From Rhodoblastus sphagnicola (GTDB lineage Bacteria; Pseudomonadota; Alphaproteobacteria; Rhizobiales; Beijerinckiaceae), in assembly GCF_002937075.1 (NCBI RefSeq), contig NZ_NHSJ01000073.1, positions 1 to 64,000 of the forward strand: 64,000 nucleotides of DNA. The letters are read 5' to 3'. Numbering within the stretch: the first letter of the stretch is position 1; every line of letters begins with the position of its first letter. Made by a program: the position numbers and the translations under genes. Of this stretch, positions 57,557 to 60,400 are shown in pieces. The notes beneath the pieces were generated by a model, which had not been told where the DNA came from, did not search any database, and saw nothing but the letters and a program-made list of their open reading frames with translations.

Positions 57557-57633
57557 CTTCAACAGGCGGCGGGGCCTTGACCTTTGGTCTCCGCCGCCCG
57601 ATCCTCCCGAAGGCTCATTTTCTTCAGGGGGTC

Positions 57634-58209
57634 ATGCGCAAACAGGCGACGGAGACCGGCGACGATGCGGCGCTGCTGGCGCGGATCGCCCGAGGCGACA
57701 GGCTGGCGATGCAGGTTCTGTTCGCGCGCCACCGCCTGCGTGTGTTCCGGTTCATCCTGCGTTTCCTGCGCGACGAGGCCCGGGCCGAGGACGCCCTGTC
57801 CGAAACCTTTGTCGATGTTTGGCGCCAGGCTGGCGCCTTCGAGGGCCGGTCCAGCGTTTCCACCTGGATCCTGTCCATCGCCCGGTTTAAGGCGCTTTCC
57901 ATCGCGCGGACGCGGCGAGAGGCGGCGCTCGACGAGGATTACGCCGCCGGCCTTGTCGATGAGGCCGACGACCCCGAAATGGAAATGGCCAAGAGCGACA
58001 AGGCGGCGGTTTTACGCGCCTGCCTGCAAAAACTCTCGCCGGAGCACCGCGAGATCGTCGATCTGGTTTACTACCACGAGCAATCCGTGGAGGAGGCCGC
58101 CGCAATCATCGGCATTCCCCCCGCCACGGTGAAGACAAGACTCTTTTATGCGCGGCAAAAGCTCTCGGAGATTTGCAAGCGCGCGGGCGTCGATCGAGGT
58201 TGGCCATGA
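57634..58209 (+). CDS. ECF RNA polymerase sigma factor
   Basis: 191 residues from the ATG at 57634 (MRKQATETGDDAALLARIAR, after CAGGGGGTC); an upstream frame start would add 27 poorly conserved residues. Region 2 is RVFRFILRFLRDEARAEDAL...FVDVWRQAGAFEGRSSVSTWI and region 4 is LSPEHREIVDLVYYHEQSVEEAAAIIGIPPATVKTRLFYAR. It is a group IV factor with no extra C-terminal domain. Its stop overlaps the anti-sigma start (ATGA). The ECF group cannot be assigned by eye. Confidence 0.92.
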   Translation: MRKQATETGDDAALLARIARGDRLAMQVLFARHRLRVFRFILRFLRDEARAEDALSETFVDVWRQAGAFEGRSSVSTWILSIARFKALSIARTRREAALDEDYAAGLVDEADDPEMEMAKSDKAAVLRACLQKLSPEHREIVDLVYYHEQSVEEAAAIIGIPPATVKTRLFYARQKLSEICKRAGVDRGWP

Positions 58210-58853
58210 ACGCGCAAGACAGGCAGAAGCTCGCGGAACTGGCGCCCTTCTATGTCGCCGGAACCCTTGCAAACGATGAGCGGGCGGGTTTTGAACGCGC
58301 CCTGGCTGAAGATCCCGACCTCGCGCGCAACGTCGAGGCGGCGCGGGCGGAACGCGACGAGGTGATCGCCCTCAACGAAGCGCTGCCGGCGCCCGGCGCG
58401 CGCGCATCCGAAAAATTATTCGCCTTGCTCGACGCCGAACCGGCGAGGGCGCCGGGTTTTTGGCGTCGGCTTGATCTTGGCGCGCGGCTTGCCGAATGGT
58501 TCAGCCCCCGCGCGCTGGGCTGGGTCGCCATGACCGCCTGCCTGCTGGTCGCGGTGGAGGCGGGGTTTCTGGCCAAACCGTCGCCGGTCGGAAGCTATGC
58601 GACGGCTTCGCGCGACGAGGTCGCGCCCGTGGGTCGCCTCGCCCTGGTCGCCTTCAACCCCGACGCCAGGGCGGACCAGATCGCGGATTTGCTCGCGCAA
58701 AATGGAGCCCAGATCGTTGGCGGACCCCGCGCGGGGTTCTTCCAGGTCAGGCTTGGCGACAAGGACATGAGCGAGGCGCAAGCCGCCTCAAAGCTGGACA
58801 GTTTGAAGGCCTCCGGGCTCGTGCGTTCCGCGCTGAAAAAAGGTGAGTCATGA
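58206..58853 (+). CDS. Membrane anti-sigma factor with propeptide-like periplasmic domain
   Basis: 215 residues. Residues 1-60 resemble the ASD/RskA-type anti-sigma start (LAPFYVAGTLANDERAGFERALAEDPDLA) but lack the zinc HxxxCxxC. A single helix lies near 98-120 (LGWVAMTACLLVAVEAGFLA). The periplasmic part (about 140-215: RLALVAFNPDARADQIADLL, GFFQVRLGDKDM, SLKASGLVRSAL) has the beta-alpha-beta-beta-alpha-beta pattern of subtilase propeptides, and even shares LVAF with the propeptide of the next gene. It overlaps both neighbours by 4 bases. Role as anti-sigma is inferred from context. Confidence 0.8.
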   Translation: MNAQDRQKLAELAPFYVAGTLANDERAGFERALAEDPDLARNVEAARAERDEVIALNEALPAPGARASEKLFALLDAEPARAPGFWRRLDLGARLAEWFSPRALGWVAMTACLLVAVEAGFLAKPSPVGSYATASRDEVAPVGRLALVAFNPDARADQIADLLAQNGAQIVGGPRAGFFQVRLGDKDMSEAQAASKLDSLKASGLVRSALKKGES

Positions 58854-60400
58854 AAGCCTGGCGCTGGCTTCTCGTCCTGCCGCTGATTGCGGCGCTCGCC
58901 TCGCCCGCGTTGGGGCAGGAGCGCAATTTTTCGCGCGGCGGCGCGGGCAACTATCGCCCCGGCGCCGGTCATCACGGCGATTTTTACGGCGGCGGGTTCT
59001 TGCCGGGCCTGCTGCTGGGCGGGGCTGCGGCTGCCGCGCATGCGCGCGACCAGGAGTTTTACGATCCCCCGCCGCGCCCGCGCCATATCCGCCGGCCGCC
59101 GCCGGACTGGATGGAATCGGACGAAGCTCCGCCGCCGCGCCATCGCCCGCATCGCGCCCGGCCGGTCGTCATGGAATCAGAGGCGCCGCCGCGTCGTAAA
59201 AAACCGCCGCCGATTTTCGCGCCGGCGCGCGCCCGGCTGCCGGCGCTGGCGGAACAAAGGCTCGCGCCCGACGAAATCCTGGTCGCGTTCCAGGCGGAAA
59301 AGGTGGGGCAGGCCCAGGATTTCGCCCGCGGGCAAAAACTCGACCTCGTCGAGGCGCGGGGCTTAAAACTGATCGGGGTCACGGTCTATCGGCTCAAGCT
59401 GCCTCGGGGCGGCGACCTGCGCAAAACCCTGCGCCGGGCCGGGCGCGACGCGCGCCTCGCCTGGGCGCAGCCGAACTATTATTATCAGCTGCAGGAGCCG
59501 GACGCGCCGGCGTCAAGCCCGCCGCCGCAACCAGAGACCAAGGACTCGCCTGCCGTCGCGCCCGCGCCGGAGGGCTATGCCGGCGCCGCGCTCAATTTGG
59601 CCGAGGCCCACAAACGCGCGCGCGGGCAGGGGGTGGCGGTGGCGGTGATCGATTCTCAGGTTGACGCCGCCCATCCCGAACTCGCCGGCGTGGCCGTCGA
59701 AAATTTTGACGCGATCGGGACGCCCGGCGCGGCCCATACCCATGGCACGGCCATGGCCGGGGCGATTTCCGGTCACGTCAAGCTGGCCGGGGCCGCGCCC
59801 GCCGCGCGTTTGCTGGCGGTGCGCGCCTTCGATCCGGGCGGGGGCGGCGCGCGCGGCGCCACGCTGAACATTTTGGCGGGGCTCGACTGGGCGGCGGACA
59901 AGGGGGCCAAGGTCGTCAGCATGAGTTTCGCCGGCCCGCCCGATCCGCTGATGGAAAAAATGGTTTTGGCCGCGACCGGCAAGGGCATGGTTGTCATCGC
60001 CGCCGCCGGCAATGAGGGGCCGGGGGCGCCGCCGCAATATCCCGGCGCCTATGCGCCGGTGATCGCGGTCGGTGCCGTGGACGAGAACGCCAAAATCTAC
60101 AGCCGGGGCAATCGGGGCGCCTACATCAAACTGGCGGCGCCCGGCGTGGACGTGCTGGCGGCGGCGCCGAACGGCGGCTACGATCTCTCCACCGGCACGT
60201 CGATCGCCTGCGCCGAAATCAGCGGCGTGGCCGCGCTGGTGCTGGAAAAAAATCCGAGCCTCGATCTCGCGGCGCTGCGCAAAATTTTACGCGACAGCGC
60301 CCGAAAAATCGTTGGCGAGGCCGATCTGGGCGAGGCCGACGCGGCGGCGGCGCTCGCAAGGTCTCCTTCTCCCCTTTCGGGAGAAGGCGTCTCGCGCTGA
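58850..60400 (+). CDS. S8 (subtilisin-like) serine peptidase
   Basis: 516 residues. The signal peptide (MKAWRWLLVLPLIAALASPA, cut near LG-QE) is followed by a Gly/Pro/Arg-rich stretch of about 110 residues (unusually basic: PPRPRHIRRPPPDW). Then comes a propeptide-like domain (about 140-215: EILVAFQAEKVGQAQDF, LIGVTVYRLKLPRGG, LAWAQPNYYYQL) and the catalytic domain with D268 (AVIDSQVDAAHPEL), H298 (THGTAMAGAISG) and S451 (STGTSIACAEISG). It is exported to the periplasm or beyond. It is third in a coupled operon after an ECF sigma and an anti-sigma factor. The last codons are made of a dispersed hairpin repeat. Confidence 0.93.
   Translation: MKAWRWLLVLPLIAALASPALGQERNFSRGGAGNYRPGAGHHGDFYGGGFLPGLLLGGAAAAAHARDQEFYDPPPRPRHIRRPPPDWMESDEAPPPRHRPHRARPVVMESEAPPRRKKPPPIFAPARARLPALAEQRLAPDEILVAFQAEKVGQAQDFARGQKLDLVEARGLKLIGVTVYRLKLPRGGDLRKTLRRAGRDARLAWAQPNYYYQLQEPDAPASSPPPQPETKDSPAVAPAPEGYAGAALNLAEAHKRARGQGVAVAVIDSQVDAAHPELAGVAVENFDAIGTPGAAHTHGTAMAGAISGHVKLAGAAPAARLLAVRAFDPGGGGARGATLNILAGLDWAADKGAKVVSMSFAGPPDPLMEKMVLAATGKGMVVIAAAGNEGPGAPPQYPGAYAPVIAVGAVDENAKIYSRGNRGAYIKLAAPGVDVLAAAPNGGYDLSTGTSIACAEISGVAALVLEKNPSLDLAALRKILRDSARKIVGEADLGEADAAAALARSPSPLSGEGVSR
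60363..60387. repeat. REP-like hairpin inside the end of the S8 peptidase gene
   Basis: CCTTCTCCC (60365-60373) pairs with GGGAGAAGG (60379-60387) around CTTTC. It shares TCTCCTTCTCCCC with the copy at 53081. Here it encodes the last residues of the peptidase (SPSPLSGEGVSR), so the element has replaced the gene's original 3' end or the gene has extended into it. Confidence 0.6.

Follow-up and report, generated by a model that had tools for sequence, protein, structure and literature searches.

For many ECF anti-sigma factors, little is known of what the outer domain senses. Proteolysis near the membrane, as proposed here, is a property of the RsgI-type autoproteolytic anti-sigma factors, for which we know of no S8 partner. 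DegP is a sigma-E target, and to our knowledge RsiV has not been described as a propeptide fold.

In Bacillus subtilis, the anti-sigma factor RsiV binds lysozyme and then becomes cleavable, its AXA motif being cut by signal peptidase upon lysozyme binding (PMC4183432, in part). The RsiV/sigma-V/lysozyme system resembles the locus described here in having a transmembrane segment in the anti-sigma factor, followed just after the membrane by a conserved small-residue motif, which is the site-1 site in RsiV and a candidate one here; it differs in that the outer domain of RsiV binds its enzyme, whereas binding of the S8 protease is here a proposal, and in that the enzyme is a host weapon, whereas S8 is probably the sigma factor's own product (PMC4183432, in part). 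The RpoE/RseA/DegS system of Escherichia coli also combines an ECF sigma factor, a membrane anti-sigma factor and a periplasmic serine protease, although that protease is of the HtrA type with a PDZ domain, and the outer domain of the anti-sigma factor is another one (PMC8103513, in part). Propeptide-like folds outside a protease are represented by the I9 inhibitors and by SUB1-ProM, the gene of which adjoins subtilase genes; both inhibit, and SUB1-ProM retains the capping residues and the tail (PMC6993865, in part), whereas the domain studied here is mostly without them and is fused to an anti-sigma factor. Finally, subtilase and CHAT-domain genes lie in the ECF sigma context of the ECF54 group, which is, however, proposed to work without an anti-sigma factor (PMC8999054, in part).

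Among the open-licence PMC papers listed (main texts), we found no anti-sigma factor with a subtilase-propeptide domain, and the open-licence PMC matches listed contained no protease-state feedback loop via a pseudo-propeptide anti-sigma factor. The initial annotation of this DNA knew of no described mechanism of this type; RsiV is a partial precedent.

Organization of the locus

The window, that is, the whole stretch of 64,000 nucleotides analysed here, contains a three-gene operon on the + strand, made up of an ECF sigma factor (57634-58209), an anti-sigma factor (58206-58853) and an S8 protease (58850-60400), with an ATGA overlap at both junctions. Its features are the following:

57577..57605, + strand: TTGACCTT-N14-CGATCCT, a weak candidate for a diverged version of the ECF promoter seen in the module (score -2.6 on the relatives' matrix); function not claimed
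57634..58209, + strand: RNA polymerase sigma factor of the ECF type (Pfam Sigma70_r2 and r4_2; PRK12515 of NCBIfam with 289.6 bits against a cut-off of 236)
58206..58853, + strand: anti-sigma factor of 215 aa, located in the membrane (its gene and the sigma gene share an ATGA; N-terminal similarity to anti-sigma models)
58515..58574, + strand: predicted single transmembrane segment, residues 104-123 of the anti-sigma factor (sequence reading; hydropathy placement in relatives)
58596..58610, + strand: motif Y-A-T-A-S next to the membrane, a candidate region for site-1 cleavage (conserved in relatives)
58635..58838 (approximate), + strand: periplasmic CTD, the last ~70 residues of the anti-sigma factor, with a subtilase-propeptide-like fold (family profiles, Pfam, AlphaFold, structure comparison)
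58850..60400, + strand: S8 (subtilisin-like) protease precursor, 516 aa (Pfam Peptidase_S8, 5.8e-40; ATGA overlap with the anti-sigma gene)
58850..58918, + strand: putative S8 signal peptide, then a Pro/Gly-rich stretch (sequence reading)
59234..59476, + strand: S8 prodomain (PF22148, 21.0 bits, exactly the cut-off, and 24.2 bits as a cut-out; strands and helices between residues 7 and 83 of the modelled S8)
59624..60307, + strand: S8 catalytic domain, with the triad Asp 59651-59653, His 59741-59743 and Ser 60200-60202

The N-terminus of the anti-sigma factor resembles NCBIfam models NF052375 (3.2e-8) and PRK13920 (1.1e-4), both under the cut-off, and its relatives adjoin relatives of the same ECF sigma factor. 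The window thus holds what characterizes an ECF sigma/anti-sigma pair, an ECF sigma factor with an adjacent anti-sigma factor crossing the membrane once. The S8 protein is the only match to PF00082 (Peptidase_S8) in the whole genome assembly. Its catalytic columns D137, H167 and S320 are invariant in a 39-row S8 alignment, and its model superposes on pro-subtilisin E (3whi_B) with a Z of 43.9 and an rmsd of 2.4 over 333 residues; having both the Asp-His-Ser triad and the fold of an active subtilase, it is predicted to be active. The S8 frame ends in SPSPLSGEG (60363-60388); by eye, its coding letters form a palindrome, CCTTCTCCC...GGGAGAAGG, and may be an intergenic repeat that has become part of the gene end.

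Relationship between the CTD and the S8 prodomain

According to the initial annotation, the C-terminus of the anti-sigma factor resembles the propeptide of its S8 neighbour, with the same elements in the same order, and the strings quoted for both do lie where it placed them. BLASTP between the two proteins of the window found no similarity (best E 5.1), so these sequences alone could not prove a resemblance and their families were needed. Relatives were collected by whole-genome search, a contig scan (75 loci) and iterated HMMs, and non-redundant alignments were made of 68 CTDs (out of 98) and 48 prodomains (out of 63). With hhalign, the two profiles matched collinearly over 67 columns at 93% probability and a score of 37.4 (E 3e-7, a single-pair value and not a database E-value). 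This match, together with a CTD topology that is that of propeptides, bears out the resemblance. None of 300 column shuffles reached the same score, the best giving 19.5, and the reversed profile gave 11.0. Moreover, a shorter CTD profile scored 25 with the prodomain and 9-15 with other domains of the same operon, and a second aligner, applied to 44 CTDs and 38 prodomains, returned 92.4%.

Among 24736 Pfam models, the family with most CTD matches was PF22148, Fervidolysin_NPro-like (15/44 at E <=0.1, best 2.9e-6), which also matched 25 of the 38 prodomains of relatives at E <=0.1. The runner-up was SPOR (6/44), a domain that is also ferredoxin-like; the window's own CTD matched SPOR alone in Pfam (0.015), with no PF22148 match.

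The AlphaFold model of the CTD (pLDDT 87) has the order beta-alpha-beta-beta-alpha-beta, which is the topology of MEROPS I9 propeptides and recurs in the prodomain of the S8 model (pLDDT 92.7). Compared with PDB chains by VIA-align, the CTD came closest to the subtilisin propeptides 1scj_B and 1spb_P (Z 7.6, rmsd 2.5, 64 residues), with ACT, S6, NapD and other ferredoxin-like folds within 1 Z of them; a Z below 8 may reflect merely a common arrangement. Foldseek gave the top rank to ribosomal S6, and none of its matches was better than 0.001. As structure does not discriminate among ferredoxin-like folds, it supports the fold only, and ancestry rests on the profiles. Against PDB sequences, no significant propeptide match was obtained by phmmer with the anti-sigma factor or with the CTD and prodomain profiles, the prodomain profile reaching Prohormone Convertase 1 at 0.85. 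Taken at the level of family profiles, the homology of the CTD to the prodomain is well supported, and the data support descent of the CTD either from a subtilase prodomain or from an ancestor common to both. Long Pro/Ala-rich linkers between the membrane and the CTD were seen in Bradyrhizobium-type anti-sigma factors (L045, L052, L059, L062 and L090).

Co-occurrence and linkage

In 397 genomes of the host's order, the CTD and the S8 subfamily occurred together in 116, the CTD only in 10, the S8 only in 4 and neither in 267 (Fisher test, 2e-82, ignoring relatedness). CTD matches fell at 128 places in 126 genomes, and 114 of these places had an S8 gene within 6 kb. S8 matches better than 1e-98, a line set where the list showed a gap (next match 6.5e-76), fell at 131 places in 120 genomes; 16 of them had no adjoining CTD, some of these being second copies in other genomes where both occur. 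Two doubtful CTD matches, in G849 (719 aa frame) and G795 (1399 aa frame), were kept in the order-wide count.

Among the genomes with the CTD only, a weaker S8 adjoins the CTD gene in G680 and G722, and a split S8 was found in G514. The CTD match of G665, G710, G756 and G636 lies less than 1.5 kb from a contig start and points off the contig, and for G636 a fragment of S8 was found on a different contig (3.7e-71); G600 had no S8 within the 10 kb fetched. Neither a sigma nor an anti-sigma factor of the module's kind was present in the stretches fetched from the four S8-only genomes, two of which were whole short contigs.

The pattern was similar at other ranks. The full anti-sigma factor (E <=1e-60) and a strong S8 (E <=1e-40), by lines drawn after the lists had been seen, were found in the same 21 of 99 genomes of the host's family; any match, weaker ones included, was found in 26 genomes for the anti-sigma factor and 36 for S8. 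The two genes were on different contigs in G041 and on two contig pieces in G075. With the CTD profile alone, 385 genomes of the host's class gave 18 places, and S8 was nearby in 16 of 17 (the window counted, a likely false positive left out). The match left out, L217, was set aside as sitting in a different enzyme, which we take to be a class II glutamine amidotransferase. Gene order varies, with S8 after the pair, divergent, convergent or first, and the proximity of S8 to the CTD gene persists; the module was also found in two Oxalobacteraceae (L094, L100) and one gammaproteobacterium (L093). The sigma factor, the CTD-bearing anti-sigma factor and S8 form a conserved, widespread module, and the pairing of CTD and S8 is old.

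Promoter motif and regulon

The motif TGAACCTT-N14-CGACCAA is common upstream of the sigma gene in relatives. It scored at least 15 within 260 bp of the sigma gene at 57 of 74 loci, and 56 occurrences were observed in 85 upstream stretches against a mean of 0.04 after shuffling, the matrix having been trained on these same sequences in both cases. Separately transcribed S8 genes are a fairer test of the promoter, the matrix being trained on the sigma upstreams. The motif (scores 16.0-22.7) was found before five of the 12 S8 genes that do not follow sigma on its own strand (L044/L104, L060, L116, L117 and L118), 60-405 bp upstream of the S8 open frame as counted from the preceding stop, against an expectation of ~0.13, computed for 11 genes at score 16. 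It was not found before L048/L114, L087, L092, L095, L109, L110 and L115, and the S8 of L103, cut at a contig edge, was excluded. A GGAAY-type promoter was not enriched (3/109 versus 5.5 when shuffled). Judged by these motifs, S8 likely belongs to the sigma factor's own regulon.

A secreted Gly/His-rich protein with a C-terminal CTD is encoded at L218:6030-6809 (G009) and also at L157:1471-2214. The G009 protein, of 247 aa as annotated by open frame and 233 aa from the likelier start, has the ECF motif (score 18.0) ~50 bp before that start and is apparently a free-standing member of the same regulon. The motif was also seen between the anti-sigma gene and a gene that, by eye, is like the TIGR03809 gene of L029 (L036 6963, L066 6954, L076 6963), which makes this gene a possible further member.

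A model for the circuit

The shared fold and profile match, the near-strict co-occurrence and linkage and the probable presence of S8 in the regulon place the protease and the anti-sigma factor in one circuit. That the three proteins form one functional circuit is well supported, and this part of the initial annotation's interpretation stands; its other part, a protease held by the anti-sigma factor as inhibitor, is not supported, as discussed below. The decoy-substrate role that it also offered is, like docking, a possible reading. Linkage, co-occurrence and the shared promoter motif support an autoregulated envelope circuit, in which the membrane anti-sigma factor would hold the ECF sigma factor and the sigma factor would express the exported S8. 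S8, or its maturation state, would engage the CTD, the engagement would expose or cut the conserved juxtamembrane [YF]xTAS motif, and site-2 proteolysis would then release sigma.

Our best model, to which we give a probability of roughly 40%, is that the CTD is a worn-down prodomain serving as receptor or docking site for the sigma factor's own S8; direct contact between the two is inferred. Because the features by which propeptides grip their protease are mostly lost from the CTD, its binding would be transient and substrate- or sensor-like, and not that of a tight inhibitor. A more explicit version, which we offer tentatively, is that the exported subtilase docks on the anti-sigma factor as on a prodomain, with free mature periplasmic S8 opening or closing site-1 cleavage.

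The motif [YF]x[TVL][AS][ST] is found just outside the membrane in 73 of 105 anti-sigma factors versus 0 of 105 control windows, and in 20/20 rows of the first alignment. Of what would mark an anti-sigma factor under RIP control (site-1 followed by site-2 cleavage), this motif is the feature observed. An association with S8 was noticed after the fact: the motif occurs in 63 of 76 anti-sigma factors with an adjoining S8 versus 4 of 18 in genomes without an S8 match better than 1e-30, and in the Rhodopseudomonas clade FETAS is retained by L055, the one locus with S8, and the seven relatives lacking S8 show no match. On 8 independent pairs, ~3.2 agreed and 0.1 disagreed (median p 0.25, not significant). 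As a site linked to S8, YxTAS was therefore given up, its strong raw counts being lost on independent pairs.

Alternative explanations

An almost equally probable competitor, likewise short of even odds, is that S8 is output only: the CTD would have come from the neighbouring prodomain but would today respond to some other signal of the envelope, without any encounter with S8, and another protease or signal peptidase would perform the site-1 cleavage. In its favour are loci where the CTD lives without S8. A whole-genome search of 24 cases without S8 at the CTD locus (two cut by contig ends) gave a strong S8 elsewhere in 5 (better than 1e-80), a moderate one in 2 (1.5e-32 and 4.2e-20), a weak one in 9 and none in 8. 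The seven Rhodopseudomonas with the CTD had only weak matches, and Bradyrhizobium L029 and L036 had none. In a tree of 73 loci built from sigma plus ASD, 10 changes are needed to account for the absence of S8, 9 of them forced by well-supported branches, and S8 presence changed, by losses or gains, on at least 8 independent paths with the CTD retained. No relaxed conservation was seen in the CTD without S8, its identity at a given sigma identity being about the same with and without the protease (the S8-less set of 34 also held loci with cut flanks).

Comparisons of individual pairs gave no sign of coevolution. A CTD resembled the prodomain of its own locus no more closely than it did in mixed pairs (p 0.50; 56/68 loci after near-copy removal), and the mirror-tree approach (47/53 loci) revealed no pair-specific CTD-S8 coevolution. 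Partial distance correlations given sigma were 0.17 for CTD-catalytic versus 0.29 for ASD-catalytic, and 0.23 for CTD-prodomain versus 0.21 for ASD-prodomain.

S8 proteases of a neighbouring subfamily adjoin ECF/anti-sigma pairs in 10 of 20 regions (L219, L220, L221, L223, L224, L228, L230, L232, L236 and L237), the 20 being 17 from the best S8 places without CTD, two from the family-wide S8 search and one at a contig edge. The CTD model had no match in the anti-sigma factors of those 10 regions. Domain searches with three CTD-less anti-sigma factors gave 17kDa_Anti_2 in one (8e-10), weakly DUF5061 in another (0.004) and nothing in the outer part of the third. The outer domain of the L220 anti-sigma factor is of the 17 kDa surface antigen type, in what looks like a wider S8-ECF association. 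At the S8-less locus L083:1898-3817, the gene after the CTD anti-sigma factor encodes a protein that begins like a signal peptide and contains TPR repeats together with a caspase domain (Peptidase_C14), so that another protease occupies the place of S8.

The output-only explanation thus gains from a CTD that is retained and about equally conserved without S8, from the other outer domains found beside related S8s and from the absence of the capping pair described below. Against it stand the near-strict CTD-S8 co-occurrence despite varied gene order and the promoter motif shared by the secreted CTD protein.

The proposal of the initial annotation, that the anti-sigma factor holds the protease as its inhibitor, can be phrased as an inhibitor of the I9 type, tethered to the membrane, that would keep mature S8 there and link its release to that of sigma; we consider it unlikely. 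At the positions that we equate, by our alignment, with Glu69 and Asp71 of BPN', S8 prodomains mostly have Gln and Asn, with D/E/N/Q at both in 40 of 48, against a capping pair at both positions in 1 of 68 CTDs, which as a group do not show the capping of MEROPS I9. In subtilisin propeptides, these residues cap two protease helices, and a tail enters the active site (PMC6993865, in part). Exactly 2 residues follow the aligned proline in 46 of 68 CTDs and at most 4 in 56, the window's CTD having 4; another 12 have 5-7, the maximum of 7 being reached by two. With tails of 5-7 residues in those 12, a few CTDs may be long enough to extend into the active site. In some subtilases the tail is dispensable (PMC10580911, in part), which leaves room for weak CTD-S8 binding, and stand-alone propeptide-like inhibitors exist (PMC6993865, PMC10580911, both in part); along with the shared fold order and the 12 longer tails, these are the points in the inhibitor's favour. 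They are outweighed by the near-absence of the capping pair, by the 46 CTDs that end exactly 2 residues after the proline and by the prodomain that S8 itself carries (HMM-detected in 63 open frames, visible by eye in 10 sequences). With the tail short or missing in most CTDs and the CTD persisting without S8, tight holding by the anti-sigma factor is not supported. A CTD acting in trans in place of an absent S8 prodomain was rejected, since prodomain-like sequence can be seen by eye in S8s that the HMM misses.

A likeness that arose by convergence, both domains having the common ferredoxin-like fold but no common ancestor, would fit the structural tie with ACT, S6, NapD and others, the SPOR matches of 6/44 CTDs and the lack of a PF22148 match in the window's own CTD, but it is very improbable given that PF22148 gathers most CTD matches of all Pfam families and that the CTD-prodomain profile score lies far above shuffles.

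Significance

A fold, a likely regulon and a genetic partner can now be assigned to a widespread family of anti-sigma factors, and with these in hand the signal sensed by the CTD becomes directly testable. If S8 does contact the CTD, propeptides would have acquired a second role in transcriptional control, that of sensing their own protease.
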